Source of the DNA: Ferrimonas kyonanensis DSM 18153
GTDB taxonomy: Bacteria; Pseudomonadota; Gammaproteobacteria; Enterobacterales; Shewanellaceae
NCBI RefSeq assembly: GCF_000425405.1
Contig: NZ_AUDJ01000023.1
Span: 1-64,000, forward strand
DNA length: 64,000 nucleotides
Direction: 5' to 3'
Made by a program: the position numbers and the translations under genes. Positions 22,921 through 31,396 of this stretch are shown one piece after another (the stretch's first letter is position 1; every line of letters begins with the position of its first letter). Below the pieces are notes generated by a model, which saw only the letters and a program-made list of their open reading frames with translations, had not been told where the DNA came from and ran no database searches.

Positions 22921-24153
22921 ATGAGCATTAAGATGTCGCCCAAGCAACAGGTGCTGGCGCTGCTGGATCAATGCCTGGCCACCGGCGTTCGCGGCCGGGT
23001 CCAGGCGGTGATTAAGCAGGCCATTGCCGACATCGAGGGCCAGAGCAGTCAGCGGGGCTATCAGCACGCCGACAGCGACATCAATGAAACCGACTGCCCC
23101 GGCCTGATCTTCAAGGTGGGCAAACACACCCGCCGCTGGGTGTACCGCTATACCCCATCCGGTGCCCGCAGTACCCGCCAGATAACTCTGGGTTACTACC
23201 CGCAGATGGATCGCGCCGCCGCCATTGCGGCCTGGGAGGCACAGCGCCTCGCCCTGGCGGGCTCGGCGCCTCAGACTGAGGCACCATTGAGCCTCAACGA
23301 CGCCATTAGTCGCTACATCGACGACTACGCACGTCAGCACCGGCCGCAGTGGCGGCGGGAACGGCAGCAACTGGAGCGCTGGTTGGGGGATGAGTGGGGC
23401 GAGGTGGCCGCCGACGCCCTGACTCCGGACCAGGCTTTGCAGGTGGTTCGGCCACAGCAAAGCGGTGCCCGCCAGCGGCTGGCGCTGCTGCGTCACTTCT
23501 ACCGGGTGGGACGCGGCTTGTGTGACGAGCTGCAACAGGGCTGGCTGCCGCCAACCCTGGCGTGTCCCTTTGAGCAGGTTCAGGTGTCTCAAGGCAAGCG
23601 TCATCGCGTTCAGGTTGGCTGGCCCCAGGTGGGGCGCTATCTGCGGGAGGTCAATGGGCTGGAAGACAGTGACCCGCGTAAACTGGTGTTGCAGCTGCAG
23701 TTGACCAACCTGGGGAGCCTGGCGTTCTGGTGCCAATTGCAGTGGCAGGACATCGACTGGCAAGCCGGATTGGCCCAGGTCGGCCAGGGCAGTGACAGCG
23801 CCATTATGCCGTTATCGCCCGCCAGCCTGGAGCTGCTCAAGCGTCGTCAGCGCAGTGCCGGCCCCAGCGTCTGGGTGTTCCCCAGTCACAGCGATGACCG
23901 CAAATCGATGCCGCATCATTACCCAGCAAAACTAATGCAAAATCTGAGGGCAAGCCTGGGGCTGCCACCGCACTTCACCGCCAGCGCCCTGGCTCGTCTT
24001 GGTCAACACTGGCTGGCAGAGCAGGGCAGGGAGATCGACTCACCCCGCTGGCCGTTGGCCACCACTCGGCCATCGGCGGCGGTGTTGGCACAGCAAAATG
24101 ACTGCCTTAAATTGTGGGTCAAAAGGCTACACATCCAAAAGCAGAGTGATTGA
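22921..24153 (+). CDS. Tyrosine-recombinase-like protein lacking the catalytic residues
   Basis: 410 residues. Residues about 60-115 match the integrase arm-binding domain of P4-type integrases (GLIFKVGKHTRRWVYRY then RQITLGYYP and a helix with AAWEAQRLALAG). A core-binding helical domain follows (about 120-220). The C-terminal third has the catalytic fold outline: LQWQDIDW (usual L-W-x-D-I-D), MPLSPASLELL (usual V-P-L-S), WVFPS, and a helix ending WLAEQG. Expected catalytic residues are missing: R in the R-x-G-E turn is replaced (LTNLGSLAF), H-x-x-R becomes HFTA, and no L-x-H or nucleophilic Tyr block is present at the C-terminus. It probably binds DNA but cannot recombine it. No phage or island genes flank it. 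Confidence 0.7.
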   Translation: MSIKMSPKQQVLALLDQCLATGVRGRVQAVIKQAIADIEGQSSQRGYQHADSDINETDCPGLIFKVGKHTRRWVYRYTPSGARSTRQITLGYYPQMDRAAAIAAWEAQRLALAGSAPQTEAPLSLNDAISRYIDDYARQHRPQWRRERQQLERWLGDEWGEVAADALTPDQALQVVRPQQSGARQRLALLRHFYRVGRGLCDELQQGWLPPTLACPFEQVQVSQGKRHRVQVGWPQVGRYLREVNGLEDSDPRKLVLQLQLTNLGSLAFWCQLQWQDIDWQAGLAQVGQGSDSAIMPLSPASLELLKRRQRSAGPSVWVFPSHSDDRKSMPHHYPAKLMQNLRASLGLPPHFTASALARLGQHWLAEQGREIDSPRWPLATTRPSAAVLAQQNDCLKLWVKRLHIQKQSD

Positions 24154-24690: not shown

Positions 24691-24966
24691 ATGACCGCAA
24701 TTTTCATCCAACGATCGCACCAACTCGGACACCAGGGGATCCGGGACCTCAGCGAGAAGATGGCTCATGACCTGCAACGCCAGTATCAGATTCGCTGGCA
24801 ATGGCAGGGCGAGCGGATGACCTTTCGTCGCATGGGAGCCCGGGGCATCCTGGTTCCCGAAGCACAACTGGTGACACTGGATATGAAACTGGGACTGATT
24901 CTGGTTCCGGTGGCGCCGATGATCCGCCAGGGAATTGAAGAAACCTTGGACGACCTGCTTATTTAG
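24691..24966 (+). CDS. Polyhydroxyalkanoic acid system (PHA granule region) family protein
   Basis: 91 residues from the ATG at 24691; a TTG two codons earlier is also in frame. The pattern IQRSHQLG, then EKMAHDLQRQYQIRWQWQGERMTFRRMGARG, then LGLILVPVAPMIRQGIEETLDDLL matches the small PHA_gran_rgn family, which in PHA producers sits next to phasins and PHA synthase. Its biochemical role is not established; association with granules is inferred from family context. Here it opens a run of phasin and wax ester synthase genes, and no PHA synthase is nearby. It is 109 bases before the first phasin. Confidence 0.75.
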   Translation: MTAIFIQRSHQLGHQGIRDLSEKMAHDLQRQYQIRWQWQGERMTFRRMGARGILVPEAQLVTLDMKLGLILVPVAPMIRQGIEETLDDLLI

Positions 24967-25075
24967 TCGCCTAATTTGATTCTGCTCAATTTCCCGAGGT
25001 GGATTAGAATGCTCCTTCTAATAACTTCGCTTACGGTAGAGATGAAAAGACAATTTAATCCGTAGTGGAGGCACC

Positions 25076-25573
25076 ATGTTAAAGAAACTGTTTGGTTCAA
25101 AAGCAACCGCTGATGTAGACGCTCAAGAAGCGCTGTATCGCAAAATCTGGTTGGCCGGTCTGGGCGCGTACTCTAAGGGTGCAGAAGAGATTGGTCAGTT
25201 GTCTGAACGCGGCTTTGGCTTGTTTGATGAGCTGATGGAGCGCGGTAAGGAGCTGGAATCTTCTACCGTCGAGAAGGTGTCCGAAGCTTCAACCCAGACC
25301 AAAGAAGCGTTTGAGTCTCAGTTGCACAGCCAGGTTCAGAAAGTAACCGGGTTGGAGGTGGACCAGCTGGAAGAGCTGGAAACCAAGATTGATCGTCTGA
25401 CCGCTCTGGTGGACAAGATGGCCGCTGAAAAAGCCGCTGCCGCCAAGGCCGCCGCTAAGCCAGCACCTGCCGCCAAGCCGGCCCCTGCCAAGGCTGCCCC
25501 GAAAGCGGCACCTAAGGCAGCCGCCAAGCCTGCGGCGAAGACGACCCGTCGAACCACCACCAAATCAGCTTAA
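25076..25573 (+). CDS. Phasin with Ala/Lys/Pro-rich tail (PhaF-like)
   Basis: 165 residues. The N-terminal ~115 residues form the phasin helix: YRKIWLAGLGAYSKGAEE at about 21-38, then amphipathic heptads (FDELMERGKELE) ending in a leucine-zipper-like stretch. The tail (about 120-165) is built of A-A-K-P repeats and ends in TRRTTTKSA, like the histone-like basic tail of Pseudomonas PhaF. Phasins coat PHA or other hydrophobic inclusions, and the basic tail can tether granules to DNA. A GGAG ribosome site precedes the ATG. The next gene is a shorter phasin 24 bases on, so the two are probably co-transcribed. Confidence 0.88.
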   Translation: MLKKLFGSKATADVDAQEALYRKIWLAGLGAYSKGAEEIGQLSERGFGLFDELMERGKELESSTVEKVSEASTQTKEAFESQLHSQVQKVTGLEVDQLEELETKIDRLTALVDKMAAEKAAAAKAAAKPAPAAKPAPAKAAPKAAPKAAAKPAAKTTRRTTTKSA

Positions 25574-25597
25574 TAACCGGCGAATAAGGAGCACAGT

Positions 25598-25948
25598 ATG
25601 AACAATGAACTTCATGGAATCCCCCCTGTAGAAGGCGTAGACAACGAACAGCTGGCACGCAACATCTGGTTGGCCGGACTGGGCGTATACAGCCGCAGTG
25701 TGGAAGAAGCGAAAGATCTGGAAGGCAAGTCCAGCGATCTGTTTGAGCGTCTGGTAGAGCGCGGTCGCGAGATCGAGTCCAACACCAAACAGCGCGTTGA
25801 AGACAACCTGGATCGCGCTAACGAAGAGGTGGAAGCCCGGGTTCACAACCTGTTCTATCGCCTCAGTGGTATTCACCCGCGCCAAATCGACGAGCTGAAT
25901 GCGAAAGTAGACAAGCTTGCCGAGGCGATTGAAAAGCTGGCCAAGTAG
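25598..25948 (+). CDS. Phasin without tail (PhaI-like)
   Basis: 116 residues. NIWLAGLGVYSRSVEEAKDLEGKSSDLFERLVERGREIE parallels the helix of the preceding phasin, including the W-L-A-G-L-G-x-Y-S core, but the protein stops before any basic tail. The C-terminal AKVDKLAEAIEKLAK is a short coiled coil for oligomerisation. Like PhaI next to PhaF, it should be the major coat protein of an inclusion. AAGGAG precedes the ATG. The wax ester synthase gene starts 23 bases later. Confidence 0.88.
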   Translation: MNNELHGIPPVEGVDNEQLARNIWLAGLGVYSRSVEEAKDLEGKSSDLFERLVERGREIESNTKQRVEDNLDRANEEVEARVHNLFYRLSGIHPRQIDELNAKVDKLAEAIEKLAK

Positions 25949-25971
25949 GTGTCAGCTCCAAGGAGGGCCTA

Positions 25972-27375
25972 ATGGCGTCATTGTCTCTATCTGAACTGGT
26001 GTTCCTGCTTTTTGAAAGCGACTCGACACCGCTTCACGTGTCAGGACTGATGCTGTTTCGTCCTCCCGTCGACCAACCGGATTTCGCCGTCACCCTGCAC
26101 CAGCAGATGGTGAATGGCGGCCCGGTTGCCCCCCCTTTCGATCGCGTGATCACCAGTAACCGCCTCGGGCTGCCGAAATGGCGCAACGCCGAAGACGTGG
26201 AGCTGGGTTATCACGTGCGTCTGTCGAAGTTACCCAAACCCGGCGATACCGATCAGCTGCTGGAGCTGGCGGCGCGAATTCACAGTTACCGTCTCGACCG
26301 CAGTCGGCCGTTGTGGGAACTGTGGATCATTGACGGCCTGGCCAGCGGTGAAGTGGCGATGATGGTCAAGTTCCACCATGCCCTCACCGATGGCATGCGC
26401 GCGGTGCAGTTGCTGGAGCGCAGCTTTGCCATCAGCGAGCAACGCGGGCACCTGGTGCCGTTCTGGCAGCTGGGCGAGTCCATCAGCGACCACAACGACG
26501 ATGAGTTCACCAGTGTGATGGCGGTGCTGCAGCCGTCATTCTGGCGCAAACAGCTCAAAGTCGGCTTTGACAGCGCTCGCCTGTTGGCCATGGCCGGTGC
26601 TGGCAGGCTCAAGCTGATCGACACCCCGATCAAACTGCCGTTCAGCGCTCCCAGGACCCCGTTTAATCACCTGGCGGCCGGTCGCGCCAAGCAGGTAACC
26701 CTGGCCAGCCTCAGCGACGCCCGCGTCAACCGACTGGCATTGCTGACCGGTGCTCAGAGTGACGATGTGATACTGACCCTGTGCGACATGTCGCTGCACC
26801 GCTATCTGCAGCAGCATAACTGGCAGGAGAGTGAGCCGCTGGTGGCCATGGTGCCGCTGCGGGATCACGACACCGGCGAGCGCTTGCACATGATCTCCGT
26901 CGGCCTGGTAGAACTGGGCGGCGCCTGGACGGACCCCCTTGAGCGCCTGGGCCAGATTCAGCGTACTCATCAGGGAATTCGGCGTCAGACCAACCGTACC
27001 AGCCTTAAGGCCTATAACCGCTACTCGTCGGTCATTAACGTGCTGTCGCTGATGGTGGCCCGTTTCGACGATCAACAGTATCTGCCGCCGGCGGCCAACA
27101 TGCTGATCACCGAAGTGGATGCCAGCCACACCGCACTGACCTTCCAGGGCGCGGAACTGGTGGCGACCTACCCGTTGTCGCTGTTGATGCCCGGCCAGAC
27201 CCTCAACATGACCCTGTTGCGCTATGGTGGTCAGTTGCACTTCGGCCTGGTGTGCTGTCGTCACTCGCTGCCGGGCTTTGAAGCCTTTGGCGATTACCTC
27301 GAGCAAAGCCTGGATGAGCTGGAAGCGACGGTGGTCGGTAACTTGTCGCGGCGCCTGAACACCTTGGCCAGTTAA
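25972..27375 (+). CDS. Wax ester synthase / acyl-CoA:diacylglycerol acyltransferase (WS/DGAT)
   Basis: 467 residues, the normal length. The catalytic HHxxxDG motif is complete (His135-His136-x3-Asp140-Gly141, in VKFHHALTDGM), preceded by the family block PLWELWIIDGL at 113-123. The second conserved block has SDDVIL in place of the more usual NDVVL. The enzyme joins acyl-CoA to fatty alcohol, making wax esters, or to diacylglycerol, making triacylglycerol, at the membrane or lipid-body surface. AAGGAGGG precedes the start. Phasin genes precede it directly, and a fatty acyl reductase that would supply the alcohol is encoded 2 kb downstream on the other strand. Confidence 0.93.
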   Translation: MASLSLSELVFLLFESDSTPLHVSGLMLFRPPVDQPDFAVTLHQQMVNGGPVAPPFDRVITSNRLGLPKWRNAEDVELGYHVRLSKLPKPGDTDQLLELAARIHSYRLDRSRPLWELWIIDGLASGEVAMMVKFHHALTDGMRAVQLLERSFAISEQRGHLVPFWQLGESISDHNDDEFTSVMAVLQPSFWRKQLKVGFDSARLLAMAGAGRLKLIDTPIKLPFSAPRTPFNHLAAGRAKQVTLASLSDARVNRLALLTGAQSDDVILTLCDMSLHRYLQQHNWQESEPLVAMVPLRDHDTGERLHMISVGLVELGGAWTDPLERLGQIQRTHQGIRRQTNRTSLKAYNRYSSVINVLSLMVARFDDQQYLPPAANMLITEVDASHTALTFQGAELVATYPLSLLMPGQTLNMTLLRYGGQLHFGLVCCRHSLPGFEAFGDYLEQSLDELEATVVGNLSRRLNTLAS

Positions 27376-27384
27376 GGAAGCTGA

Positions 27385-28293
27385 ATGTCTAGTTGGCGGG
27401 CAAAAGCACTGAATAAAGTGTTGTTCCGGGCGATCCGAAGTCGCCTGGAGCGGTGTAACGACATTCTCTCCATGCGCGGAGTCATCGCCGGGCTGGACAA
27501 ACTCAACGCCTACATCGGCAGCCCCACCAACCTGGAGTTCATCGACGATCACCTCAACGGTGTGCCCTGTCAGTGGCTGGTCAAGGGCCGGCCTGCCGGT
27601 GATAAGGTGCTGCTGTATTTTCACGGCGGCGGTTTTTGCTTCCGCTCCCCCAAGGTGCACAACGCCATGTTGTACCACCTGACCCAGGCTACCGGCTCTC
27701 GCGGAGTCATGGTCAACTACCGTCTGGCGCCGGAGTTTCCGTTTCCGGCGGCGACGTCGGACTGCTTCAATGCCTATAAGGCGCTGCTGGACCAGGGCAT
27801 TGCCGCGGATAAGATCATCATTGGTGGTGACTCCGCCGGAGGCAACCTGGCGCTGACCACCATGCTGAAGGCCAAGGAGAAGGGCTTTCCGCAACCGTTG
27901 GCGGCGCTGCTGTTCTCGCCGGCACTGGATCTGACCATGAACACCCAGTCCGGTTTTGTGATGCGCAATGAAGACCCGTTCTTCGATCTCGGCAGCCTGA
28001 TGCTGCTGCGCAACAGCTACCTCAATGGCCATACCCCCTGTGATCCCATGGCGTCACCGCTGGCGGCGGATCTGACCGATCTGGCGCCGATCATGGTGCA
28101 TGTGGGCAGTGTTGAGATTCTACTGGACGATTCGGTGCGCCTGGCCAACAAGGTACGGCGCCTGGGGGGAGAGGCAGACCTGACCATCTGGCCCGGACTG
28201 CCTCATGTGTTTACCCTGTTCTATCAACTTCCCGAGGCCAAAGAGGCCATCGATCGTTGCGGCCGTTTTATCGAACGCTGTCTGCAAAATTGA
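27385..28293 (+). CDS. Alpha/beta hydrolase of the hormone-sensitive lipase family
   Basis: 302 residues, starting 9 bases after the wax synthase. The oxyanion motif HGGGFCF lies near residues 77-83, the nucleophile in GGDSAGGNLAL near 148, Asp in the VGSVEILLDDS region near 245, and catalytic His in LPHVF near 272: the HSL-type esterase/lipase set. It has no signal peptide. In this operon the likely job is hydrolysis of stored acyl esters (wax ester or acylglycerol mobilisation), though it could act on other esters. Its 3' end overlaps the convergent TetR gene by 26 bases. Confidence 0.87.
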   Translation: MSSWRAKALNKVLFRAIRSRLERCNDILSMRGVIAGLDKLNAYIGSPTNLEFIDDHLNGVPCQWLVKGRPAGDKVLLYFHGGGFCFRSPKVHNAMLYHLTQATGSRGVMVNYRLAPEFPFPAATSDCFNAYKALLDQGIAADKIIIGGDSAGGNLALTTMLKAKEKGFPQPLAALLFSPALDLTMNTQSGFVMRNEDPFFDLGSLMLLRNSYLNGHTPCDPMASPLAADLTDLAPIMVHVGSVEILLDDSVRLANKVRRLGGEADLTIWPGLPHVFTLFYQLPEAKEAIDRCGRFIERCLQN

Positions 28294-28870
28294 GCTGACG
28301 CTTGAGGTAGGGGCTGACCAGAGACATCAACCGGTTGGCCCCGGTTCGTACCATCTCCTCCTCCTCCTTCTCCGGCCCCAGGGTGGTTTCGAAGCACAGC
28401 CAGGACAGCCCCAGCAGAAACAGGTTGTCCGCCAGCTCAAACCGCTGTTGGGCACTCATCTCCACCAGGTTCTTTTTTTGCAGGGCAGAAAGGCTGTGGG
28501 CGGTGAAGTTACGCAGCTGCTTGATCAGCCGCTGGTTACCCCGATTGCCGACGGTGCTCTGTTCGATGGCTTGAAAGTCGAGGAACAGGAACCGGTAGTG
28601 CAAACAGACCCGCAGCAGTGAGTTAAGAAACACCCAGTACTCCTGCTCGCTGATGGCGTCGAGGTCGAGCCGCGCCAACAGTTTTCCCACCGCCAGTTCG
28701 CACTCCTTGAACAGTTGGGCGATGATCTCCTCTTTGCCCTTGTAGTGGTAGTAGAGGTTGCCGGGACTGATCTCCAGCTCGGCAGCGATGTCCAGACTGG
28801 TGACGTTGCCTGAGCCCTGATGATTAAACAGGGCCAGGCTGGTCTCCAGTATCCGCTCCCGGGTGCCCAT
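28268..28870 (-). CDS. TetR-family transcriptional regulator
   Basis: 200 residues from the ATG at 28870, beginning MGTRERILETSLALF. The helix-turn-helix occupies about residues 22-45 (VTSLDIAAELEISPGNLYYHYKGKEEI), the standard TetR pattern with the Y-Y-H-Y/F-K-K ending. A ligand-binding helical domain follows. The start is one base after the stop of the DUF2505 gene, so it is the last gene of the FAR-DUF2505-tetR operon and probably autoregulates it. A perfect 8-2-8 inverted repeat just upstream of the FAR start (31379-31396) is a candidate operator. The ligand is perhaps an acyl-CoA or alcohol (inference). Confidence 0.88.
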   Translation of the reverse strand: MGTRERILETSLALFNHQGSGNVTSLDIAAELEISPGNLYYHYKGKEEIIAQLFKECELAVGKLLARLDLDAISEQEYWVFLNSLLRVCLHYRFLFLDFQAIEQSTVGNRGNQRLIKQLRNFTAHSLSALQKKNLVEMSAQQRFELADNLFLLGLSWLCFETTLGPEKEEEEMVRTGANRLMSLVSPYLKRQLNFADSVR

Positions 28871-28871
28871 A

Positions 28872-29366
28872 TCAGGCGGTTTCCCTGGCCAGTTGCTGCT
28901 GCAGGTAGTCGCGCTCGGCATTGGCCATGCGCTCAATCTCATCGCAGACGAAGCGGGTCAGCTTGTTGCCGATAAACGGCAGGGCGCTCTTCAACTGCAG
29001 CTCGACGTGGTTGGCACAACCGCTGTCTGTGGGGGCGAAGTGCAGGGTGCCGGTGATCTTAATCGGCACGCCAACCAGTTCTACCGCCATCTGGCAATGG
29101 TAGTGGTCGCCGTCGATGCGCCACTGCTCGGCTTGCTTGGCGACGTTGCGAGCGCCGAGCAGACGTTTGAGAACCGAGGGCACGTTGCTTTCCATCTCCC
29201 GCTTGGTGGACAGCGTCAGGCCGTCGTCCTTCGGGGTCAGTTCGGTGACCCGAACGTTGTCACAGTCGATGTCACTGTACTTCTGGGTAATCAGGTCCGG
29301 CTCGCTGAAGAAACGAAACAGTTCCGCGGTGGAGCAGCTGTACAGGTGGGTCATTGCTAGTTTCAT
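28872..29366 (-). CDS. DUF2505 family protein
   Basis: 164 residues from the ATG at 29366, with AGGAG 6 bases upstream. MTHLYSCSTAELFRFFSEPDLITQKYSDI at the start and the later RDYLQQ tail match the DUF2505/SRPBCC-like pattern, in which a hydrophobic cavity is formed by a curved sheet and a long C-terminal helix. Such folds bind lipids or other hydrophobic ligands; the actual ligand is unknown. It lies 8 bases downstream of the fatty acyl reductase and one base before the TetR gene, so a role in handling acyl chains or fatty alcohols is an inference from the operon. Confidence 0.75.
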   Translation of the reverse strand: MKLAMTHLYSCSTAELFRFFSEPDLITQKYSDIDCDNVRVTELTPKDDGLTLSTKREMESNVPSVLKRLLGARNVAKQAEQWRIDGDHYHCQMAVELVGVPIKITGTLHFAPTDSGCANHVELQLKSALPFIGNKLTRFVCDEIERMANAERDYLQQQLARETA

Positions 29367-29374
29367 TGTATCTC

Positions 29375-31354
29375 CTAAAAGTGGATGCCTCTGAGCATCG
29401 CAGCCAAACCAATCATCTGTTGTTGTTCGGTGTAATTCAGTTTGTCTTCGTGAACCTCCCCGGATTCCGGGAACATGCGAAACAGCATGTTCATGCTGAT
29501 CTCGGCCAATCGTGGTGACAGCGCGTGCAGCACGGCGCCAAAAATCCCCAGTTTGGTGGCGATGCGTTTCGGTCGATGCACCACCGCCTGGGCGATGAGT
29601 TCGGCGGCCTGCTCCGAGCTGAGGGTGGGCACCGCCTGATACAGCTGGGTGGGGGCACTCATGGGCGTGTCTACCAGCGGCATGTTGATGGTGGTGAAGC
29701 GTACGCCGCTGTCTGAGTACTCGGCGGCGGCGCAGCGACAGAAGGATTCCAGCGCCGCGTTGGAGGCCACATAGGCACTGAACCGCGGGGCGTTGGTCAG
29801 CACGCCGATGGAGGAGACGATGATGATGTGCCCCTTCTGCTGCTCGGCCATGGGCCCGATCAGCCCCAGAATCAGCCGAAGGGCGCCAAAGTAGTTGATG
29901 GCCATGGTGCGCTGATAGTCGTGAATCCGTTCCACCGAGGCGGCGACCGAGCGTCGTATCGAGCGCCCGGCGCAGTTGATCATCACGTCCACCTTGCCGT
30001 GGCGGGACAGCAGGGTCTGCACCAGGGTATCGGTTTGGGCCTCGTCGGTGAGATCGCACAGGTAACACTGGGCTTTGCCTCCCCGTTCGCGCACCTTCTG
30101 CTGCACCTGTTGCAGTCGCTGTTTATCGCGGCCGACCAGCAGCAGGTGGGCGCCGGAAGCGGCCAGGCGCTCGGCACTGGCTTCGCCGATGCCGGAACTG
30201 GCACCGGTAATCAATACGGTCTTGTGTTGCAGGCGGTGGTTCAGTTCGTCGTCGAGAAACAGGTCCGGATCCAGCTCCCGTTCCCAGTAGTCCCATAAGC
30301 GGTTGGCGTAGCTGGCCAGATCCGGGCAGCGGATCTGGTGGGCATCGAGCAGGGTACGGGTCTTCTGGTTGTCGAAGCGGGTCGGGTAGTTCAGCAGCGC
30401 CATCAGATCCGGTGGAATGCCGTAATCCGACAGAATGCGTTGGCCAAGTTTCACCAGCGGCGGGTATTGCGACGCCAGTTGCAGCCACGGCTGTGGCAGC
30501 AGGCTGGTGAGGTTCATGTTCATCTTCAGGGTCATGGTCGGTCCGCGCCCGGCCCGAGAGATGATGTTCAGCACCTCACCGGCGTGATAAGGGCGGGGAT
30601 CGGTCAGGTGGAAGCACTCGCCGTCCTGATCCGCCAGGTGCATCAGGCAGTCGAAGGCATCGGCGACGTAGTCCACCGGCACGATGTTCAGAGGACCGCC
30701 TTCAAATCCGGCCAGGGGAAACCAGCGCGGCAGGGCATCGCGCACCTTTTGCAGCAGCTTGAAGAAATAGTAGGGCCCCTGAACCCGGTTGGCGGCGCCG
30801 GTTTCGCTGTCGCCGATGACGATGCCTGGGCGATAGATGCGATAGGGCAGGCCATTGTGTTCGCGCACCGCCTTTTCGCACAGGTGGCGAGACAGGAAAT
30901 AGGGGTGAGTCAACTGTTCGGCTTCGGCAAACATCTGCTCGTCGAAGCAGCCCCGGTACAGCCCGGCCGCGGCAATGGAACTCAGGTGGTGGAAGCAGGT
31001 GGCTCCCAGCAACTCGGCGCAGGCCAGGGCGTGCTCGGTGGCGGTGACATTGGCCTTCACCAGCTCATGGCCGTTTCGGCGAAAGTCGGAGTGGCTGGCC
31101 AGGTGGACAAAATGCACGATCTTGTCCCGCAGCGATTCGGTGTCGCGGGGACACAGGCCCAGGGCCGGATCGTTGAGGTTGCCACGAATTGGCAGCACTC
31201 GATCCAGCGCCGCCAGTTCGCTGGCGCTCTTTCGCAGTCGCTGCTCGGCCTGGTCGTCTTTTACCAGGCAATAGAGGGTGCCTTCACGGGCCAGCAGGCG
31301 CCGTAACAGCTGTTGTCCCACCAATCCGGTGGCACCGGTAACAAAGTAGCTCAT
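29375..31354 (-). CDS. Alcohol-forming fatty acyl-CoA reductase (Marinobacter FAR type, two SDR domains)
   Basis: 659 residues from the ATG at 31354, which has AAGGAAGGAG upstream; an upstream in-frame start is less likely. The N-terminal extended SDR/NAD-binding-4 domain has TGATGLVG (6-13), HHLSSIAAAGLY and YRIYRPGIVIGDSETG. The C-terminal classical SDR domain has ITGASSGIGEASAE near 380 and the SSIGVLTNAPRFSAYVAS active-site block. Both domains in this order, and blocks such as GPYYFFKLLQK, NIVPVDYV and YWERELDPDLF, match the Marinobacter fatty acyl reductase from memory. It reduces fatty acyl-CoA with NADPH, through the aldehyde, to fatty alcohol, the second substrate of wax ester synthase. 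It is first gene of a three-gene operon. Confidence 0.9.
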   Translation of the reverse strand: MSYFVTGATGLVGQQLLRRLLAREGTLYCLVKDDQAEQRLRKSASELAALDRVLPIRGNLNDPALGLCPRDTESLRDKIVHFVHLASHSDFRRNGHELVKANVTATEHALACAELLGATCFHHLSSIAAAGLYRGCFDEQMFAEAEQLTHPYFLSRHLCEKAVREHNGLPYRIYRPGIVIGDSETGAANRVQGPYYFFKLLQKVRDALPRWFPLAGFEGGPLNIVPVDYVADAFDCLMHLADQDGECFHLTDPRPYHAGEVLNIISRAGRGPTMTLKMNMNLTSLLPQPWLQLASQYPPLVKLGQRILSDYGIPPDLMALLNYPTRFDNQKTRTLLDAHQIRCPDLASYANRLWDYWERELDPDLFLDDELNHRLQHKTVLITGASSGIGEASAERLAASGAHLLLVGRDKQRLQQVQQKVRERGGKAQCYLCDLTDEAQTDTLVQTLLSRHGKVDVMINCAGRSIRRSVAASVERIHDYQRTMAINYFGALRLILGLIGPMAEQQKGHIIIVSSIGVLTNAPRFSAYVASNAALESFCRCAAAEYSDSGVRFTTINMPLVDTPMSAPTQLYQAVPTLSSEQAAELIAQAVVHRPKRIATKLGIFGAVLHALSPRLAEISMNMLFRMFPESGEVHEDKLNYTEQQQMIGLAAMLRGIHF

Positions 31355-31378: not shown

Positions 31379-31396
31379 AGAGTGCCCAGGCACTCT
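31379..31396 (-). promoter_or_regulatory. Inverted repeat upstream of the fatty acyl reductase, candidate TetR operator
   Basis: AGAGTGCC-CA-GGCACTCT is a perfect 8-bp inverted repeat with a two-base spacer, 25 bases before the FAR start. TetR-family operators are often of this size. It could also be a leader hairpin. Confidence 0.45.

Follow-up and report, generated by a model that had tools for sequence, protein, structure and literature searches.

What do phasins coat in a marine bacterium that has no polyhydroxyalkanoate (PHA) synthase? This question is raised by a locus of eight genes at positions 24691-31354 of a 64,000-nucleotide stretch of Ferrimonas kyonanensis DSM 18153 (contig NZ_AUDJ01000023.1; the whole stretch is referred to as the window), in which two phasins of the family PF05597 lie next to a wax ester synthase/diacylglycerol acyltransferase (WS/DGAT). 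We consider it likely that the locus serves neutral-lipid storage, as a module in which the PF05597 phasins would coat bodies made by WS/DGAT. An earlier note on this DNA had suggested that the phasins dress such bodies rather than, or as well as, PHA granules; comparisons of genomes strongly support the first of these readings, through phylogenetic profiles, repeated loss of the PHA synthase gene phaC, and conserved synteny. The whole genome of the window (99.99% complete) gave no match to the PhaC_N profile (PF07167) at E<=0.001, so that the absence of a PHA synthase, which the note had stated for the locus, holds genome-wide. The genome search that the note had proposed thus yielded zero phaC, and it yielded two additional WS/DGATs elsewhere in the genome.

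The features of the locus are as follows; gene identities were taken from Pfam and NCBIfam profile searches.

24691..24963, plus strand: small PHA_gran_rgn protein, 91 aa (PF09650/TIGR02610; PF09650 E 6e-21)
25004..25021, no strand: candidate operator of a PhaD-like TetR, palindrome TTAGAA-N6-TTCTAA, upstream of phasin 1
25076..25570, plus strand: phasin 1, 165 aa, with a 48-aa basic K/A/P-rich tail (PF05597 E 2e-10)
25598..25945, plus strand: phasin 2, 116 aa, tail-less (PF05597 E 6e-16)
25972..27372, plus strand: WS/DGAT, 467 aa (PF03007 E 2e-51, and PF06974; PDB 6chj match E 2e-52)
27385..28290, plus strand: alpha/beta hydrolase of the hormone-sensitive lipase (HSL) type (Abhydrolase_3; HGGG and GDSAG motifs)
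28271..28870, minus strand: TetR-family regulator (PF00440 and PF13972)
28875..29366, minus strand: DUF2505 protein, StART-like fold, possible lipid carrier (DUF2505 profile E 1.5e-29)
29378..31354, minus strand: two-domain short-chain dehydrogenase/reductase (SDR) of the fatty acyl-CoA reductase (FAR) type, 659 aa (NF005539)

All eight genes named in the earlier note were recovered at the same place and in the same orientation, with start codons refined to 24691 (PHA_gran_rgn), 28870 (TetR), 29366 (DUF2505) and 31354 (FAR). The rightward group runs in the order PHA_gran_rgn, phasin 1, phasin 2, WS/DGAT and HSL-type esterase, with gaps of at most 112 bases; the leftward group of FAR, DUF2505 and TetR is convergent to it, and the ends of TetR and the esterase overlap. 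The two phasins score 41.5 and 59.1 bits with PF05597, above the curated Pfam cut-off of 28.8, and both are under the TIGR01837 cut-off of NCBIfam (94.7). Both Pfam domains of WS/DGAT are present, together with the HHALTDG (HHxxxDG) and PLW motifs, and the TIGR02946 score of 303.7 bits is slightly below the cut-off (309.95).

Using a set of 60 genomes (14 Ferrimonas, 22 others of the family and 24 others of the order), we determined the distribution of four protein families, having removed before counting a sub-cut-off PF05597 match (G050) and a 62-residue WS/DGAT match (G043). PF05597 above cut-off was present in 19 of the 60 genomes and a full WS/DGAT in exactly those 19; phaC was present in 20 genomes and the other phasin family, PF09361 (Phasin_2), in exactly those 20. 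Outside Ferrimonas, the two pairs coincide in 6/6 and 10/10 genomes, respectively. Fisher tests, in which phylogeny and linkage are ignored, gave 5e-16 for PF05597 with WS/DGAT and 2e-16 for PF09361 with phaC over all genomes, and 1e-7 and 3e-10 outside the genus. A wider sample of the class (369 genomes) contained PF05597 above cut-off in 17 genomes (28 at E<=0.001), WS/DGAT in 21 (22) and strong phaC in 71 (93 at E<=0.001). WS/DGAT was found in 13 of the 17 PF05597 genomes, compared to 1.0 expected, and strong phaC in four, compared to 3.3 expected. Three genomes of one family (G071, G223 and G331; loci L102, L103 and L104) have a strong PF05597 phasin and neither phaC nor WS/DGAT. Among the best 80 of 452 confirmed relatives of phasin 2, some of them on short contigs, the flank holds WS/DGAT in 42 cases, phaC in 7, both in 1 and neither in 32. 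Thirty-nine of these 80 named genomes, which were chosen for carrying the phasin and at least 4 of which overlap with the set of 60, were searched genome-wide; WS/DGAT was found in 38, Pseudomonas aeruginosa PA7 being the sole exception, and phaC in 19.

The synteny of relatives with and without phaC, a comparison that the note had also proposed, points in the same direction, since the block was kept after at least three losses of phaC. The full eight-gene order is retained in 13 of the 14 Ferrimonas, in Paraferrimonas (G017), in G044 and in Vibrio sp. PID17_43; G054 has all eight genes, with PHA_gran_rgn approximately 4 kb more distant. The block of V. maritimus CAIM 1455 (L131:9362-16327) has broken frames in phasin 1, WS/DGAT, DUF2505 and FAR, which are perhaps assembly errors. 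In many Alteromonas and their kin, a phasin (often two), TetR and WS/DGAT are grouped within about 10 kb. The gene phaC lies beside ygiQ in all 10 phaC-bearing Ferrimonas, with PF09361 just upstream in four of them, and the four Ferrimonas that have no phaC (G000, G001, G005 and G008) retain ygiQ and the neighbours of the phaC site. In FastTree phylogenies, at least three losses of phaC together with PF09361 were found in Ferrimonas (G001; G008; G000 with G005), and the phasin-WS/DGAT block was retained each time. The placement of G008 with G011 has a support of 1.0 in the block tree and 0.88 in the ygiQ tree. The sisters G010 and G001 (support 0.95 in the ygiQ tree) show reciprocal content: G010 (L084) contains phaC and PF09361 only, and G001 (L058/L202) contains PF05597 and WS/DGAT only.

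These observations should be weighed against the explanation that a synthase encoded elsewhere makes PHA granules and that these are what the phasins coat, the adjacency to WS/DGAT being incidental. PF05597 is named for PHA granules, and several observations weigh against lipid-body coating. In Pseudomonas, phasins of PF05597 adjoin phaC: four loci consist of PHA_gran_rgn, two phasins and a convergent TetR, then two phaC. The gene phaC is also present in 10 of the 14 Ferrimonas, and all nine Photobacterium searched have one phaC and one WS/DGAT, the latter outside the 20 kb fetched around the block; of 11 Photobacterium loci of the block type (L120-L129, L135), nine have all genes but WS/DGAT, and the other two end at a contig or flank limit. 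Over the 60 genomes PF05597 also shows a weak association with phaC (10/19 vs 10/41, p 0.04), four of the 17 phasin genomes of the class sample (G071, G223, G268 and G331) have neither WS/DGAT nor strong phaC, and physical linkage inflates the co-occurrence of WS/DGAT with the phasin in tests that take no account of phylogeny. However, PHA granules as the target are made highly unlikely by the lack of a phaC match in the window's own genome and by the fact that phaC follows PF09361 in 20 of 20 genomes; in addition, 9 of the 19 PF05597 genomes are without phaC, and no association of the two is seen outside Ferrimonas (1/6 vs 9/40, p 1).

Alternatively, the phasins could be relics of a lost PHA system that were retained merely by linkage to WS/DGAT. 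The window's lineage has indeed lost both phaC and PF09361, with the neighbours of the phaC site still there. Conversely, purifying selection on the phasins is strong. For the species pair G000 and G005, neither of which has phaC, the ratios of nonsynonymous to synonymous substitution rates (dN/dS) are 0.00-0.10 in all eight genes: phasin 2 has a dN/dS of 0.00, with zero amino-acid changes over 116 codons at a dS of 0.09, phasin 1 has 0.03, and TetR has 0.03 (computed from the later start). Together with retention of the phasins after three independent phaC losses, this leaves the relic explanation with very little credibility.

Under coating of WS/DGAT-made bodies, the parts of the locus can be assigned the following putative roles. 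WS/DGAT would produce triacylglycerol (TAG), wax ester or both. The bodies so formed would be covered by the two PF05597 phasins, possibly joined by the PHA_gran_rgn protein, in the way that PhaI and PhaF cover the PHA granules of Pseudomonas. From its position, the HSL-type esterase may mobilise the lipid, and the DUF2505 protein may carry acyl or alcohol intermediates. The PhaD-like TetR is predicted to govern the coat promoter via the conserved palindrome. FAR ancestrally may have supplied fatty alcohol.

The last of these roles is questionable in the window's species. SDR enzymes require the lysine of the YxxxK motif, and in the FAR of the window the two motifs read YFLSR (Y152..R156) and YVASN (Y528..N532), so that the lysine is gone in both SDR domains. 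The motif is intact in both domains in 17 of 23 aligned FARs, and these 17 canonical FARs are located in the same kind of block or beside a phasin. The C-terminal domain has YVASN in all six FARs of the window's clade, whereas the N-terminal lysine position has R in G000 and G005, H in G002, and K in G008, G011 and G012. In G011, the FAR frame is interrupted by a stop at codon 578 of 659, within the C-terminal domain. Relaxed selection on FAR was considered and rejected: dN/dS was 0.10, 0.04, 0.13 and 0.12 for four pairs of the clade and 0.06, 0.07 and 0.08 for three canonical pairs, and FAR does not stand out from WS/DGAT, whose values for the same pairs are 0.06, 0.03, 0.10 and 0.12, and 0.05, 0.04 and 0.06. 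The two clade pairs that include the interrupted FAR have 0.04 (G008-G011) and 0.12 (G011-G012). It should be noted that the codon alignments keep the stop as X, that the pairs share members, and that some dS values are near or above 1.

The earlier note had described a full path from acyl-CoA to alcohol to wax ester. Its genes, WS/DGAT and FAR, are present; the alcohol step is doubtful, with both FAR lysines replaced. If the pathway were active in the window's species, FAR would make alcohol from acyl-CoA and WS/DGAT would esterify it. This is consistent with the intact reading frame of FAR and the purifying selection acting on it (dN/dS 0.10), with the genomic position of its 17 canonical relatives, and with Maqu_2507-like FARs on record near WS/DGAT (PMC10351704). 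Nevertheless, we regard an active wax-ester pathway as rather doubtful, given the YxxxR and YxxxN motifs, the C-terminal change throughout the clade and the interrupted FAR of G011; the dN/dS values (0.04-0.13 in the clade vs 0.06-0.08 in the canonical FARs) are not decisive. Because both catalytic lysines of FAR have been replaced, TAG seems no less probable a product than wax ester; the window's species probably makes TAG for the most part, or else wax ester using alcohol from another source. Near the second WS/DGAT of the genome, Pfam searches identified a single-domain SDR and an iron alcohol dehydrogenase; this WS/DGAT (L089:9565-14214) directly precedes an HSL-type esterase, with the iron alcohol dehydrogenase just past it. 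No two-domain FAR was found near the other two WS/DGATs among the ten neighbouring open reading frames checked with Pfam, nine of 28 listed and one other. The genomes of the window's clade have two or three WS/DGATs each, and other block-bearing Ferrimonas have one.

The note had further described a phasin with a histone-like tail, and phasin 1 does have a 48-residue K/A/P/R-rich tail with a net charge of +11. That this tail anchors lipid bodies at the nucleoid, by analogy with PhaF, PhaM and MLDS, is a suggestion that we hold tentatively, at slightly less than an even chance. The C-terminal domain of PhaF binds DNA (PMC3574117), PhaM attaches poly(3-hydroxybutyrate) granules to the nucleoid (PMC3556143), and MLDS, on the lipid droplets of Rhodococcus, binds DNA through a C-terminus rich in lysine (PMC5504291). 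All 13 Ferrimonas tails are basic, four from phaC-less genomes included (net +5 to +12), and the net charge is +7 in Paraferrimonas. Against tethering, the tail of G044 is net neutral. For G054 the script gave no tail boundary, and the long phasin is visibly K/A/P-rich.

The palindrome TTAGAA-N6-TTCTAA lies between PHA_gran_rgn and phasin 1 in all 13 Ferrimonas loci (nine exact copies, three with one mismatch and one with two). In 12 fetched loci (236 kb) there are 13 sites in all, 12 of them at this place, and 25004-25021 is the only site in the window within two mismatches. G044 and V. maritimus carry exact copies of the palindrome, which has one mismatch in Vibrio PID17_43, two in G054, and one or two in the eight Photobacterium examined; it is absent at the Paraferrimonas locus, and stray sites occur elsewhere in some non-Ferrimonas loci. 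In P. aeruginosa PA7, a copy with one mismatch precedes the first phasin; at the same position, three further Pseudomonas have nothing closer than three-mismatch forms. TetR shares 36% identity, along its length, with the TetR that occupies the PhaD position in the PA7 pha cluster, and its convergent position matches as well; in P. putida, PhaD is an activator that binds operators of two promoters, Pc1 and PI (PMC11592762). The phasin and FAR promoters have no 17-base word in common when 3 mismatches are allowed. Another palindrome, upstream of FAR (31379-31396), was discarded as a candidate for an operator shared by the two promoters; it was found again only in G005, among the best two palindromes per locus.

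The Pseudomonas pha cluster (phaC1-Z-C2-D, phaF-phaI) likewise contains PHA_gran_rgn, two PF05597 phasins and a convergent TetR, and the block resembles this coat cassette, with PHA synthase apparently swapped for WS/DGAT. Where Pseudomonas has PHA synthases and a depolymerase, the Ferrimonas locus has WS/DGAT, esterase, DUF2505 and FAR; in addition, the tailed phasin comes first in Ferrimonas, whereas the longer phasin frame is second in the Pseudomonas loci. A broader statement, on which we are evenly divided, is that in Gammaproteobacteria the PF05597 cassette with its PhaD-like regulator may be a polymer-neutral coat module, mostly for WS/DGAT lipid bodies, while PF09361 would serve PHA; the pairing in Pseudomonas would then be derived, or an alternative one, and many annotated PHA granule proteins would be misnamed lipid-body coats.

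The locus is a new pairing of known parts. A metagenome study (PMC10351704) reports WS/DGAT with an SDR-type FAR, as in Ferrimonas, at loci of Betaproteobacteria and Gammaproteobacteria; on betaproteobacterial scaffolds, WS/DGAT has Maqu_2507-like FARs nearby, together with a polyhydroxyalkanoic acid system protein (on some Burkholderiales scaffolds) and a putative phasin (on one). In the available part of that study these genes are noted as PHA-related, and neither co-distribution with phaC or Phasin_2 nor an HSL-TetR-DUF2505 block is described. MLDS of Rhodococcus jostii RHA1 is a neutral-lipid body protein with a DNA-binding lysine-rich C-terminus (PMC5504291); Rhodococcus belongs to a different phylum from Ferrimonas. 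RHA1 has no protein highly similar to known phasins, according to the available part of PMC2667194. A PHA granule phasin of Rhodococcus ruber was isolated from lipid inclusions (Kalscheuer 2001, as cited in PMC5658603); it is one protein of a PHA producer, compared to a dedicated lipid block in Ferrimonas. No statement of a partition between PF05597 with WS/DGAT and PF09361 with phaC was recognised in the open-access literature searched, most subscription journals being outside this scope. This partition is a direct and cheap prediction.

Few coat proteins are known for bacterial wax or fat bodies outside Actinobacteria. If PF05597 coats lipid bodies in Ferrimonas, Alteromonas, Photobacterium and their kin, many genes taken as evidence of PHA need re-reading, a tractable perilipin-like system would be gained, and DNA tethering could be asked about for the oil bodies of Gram-negative bacteria.

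Some further properties of the individual proteins should be mentioned. FAR scores 812 bits with NF005539 (cut-off 549) and is Maqu_2507-like by profile and architecture; a search of solved structures (E<=1e-20) returned 12 sequences, every one covering one domain only. The AlphaFold2 model of the PHA_gran_rgn protein is confident (predicted local distance difference test, pLDDT, 88.9), and its fold search against solved structures returned nothing at E<=0.001. The DUF2505 model is a StART-like domain (pLDDT 91.5), with 6bym as the top Foldseek match (E 2e-5). Finally, a tyrosine-recombinase-like gene with an arm-binding domain (22921-24150) adjoins the block in the window's Ferrimonas clade.

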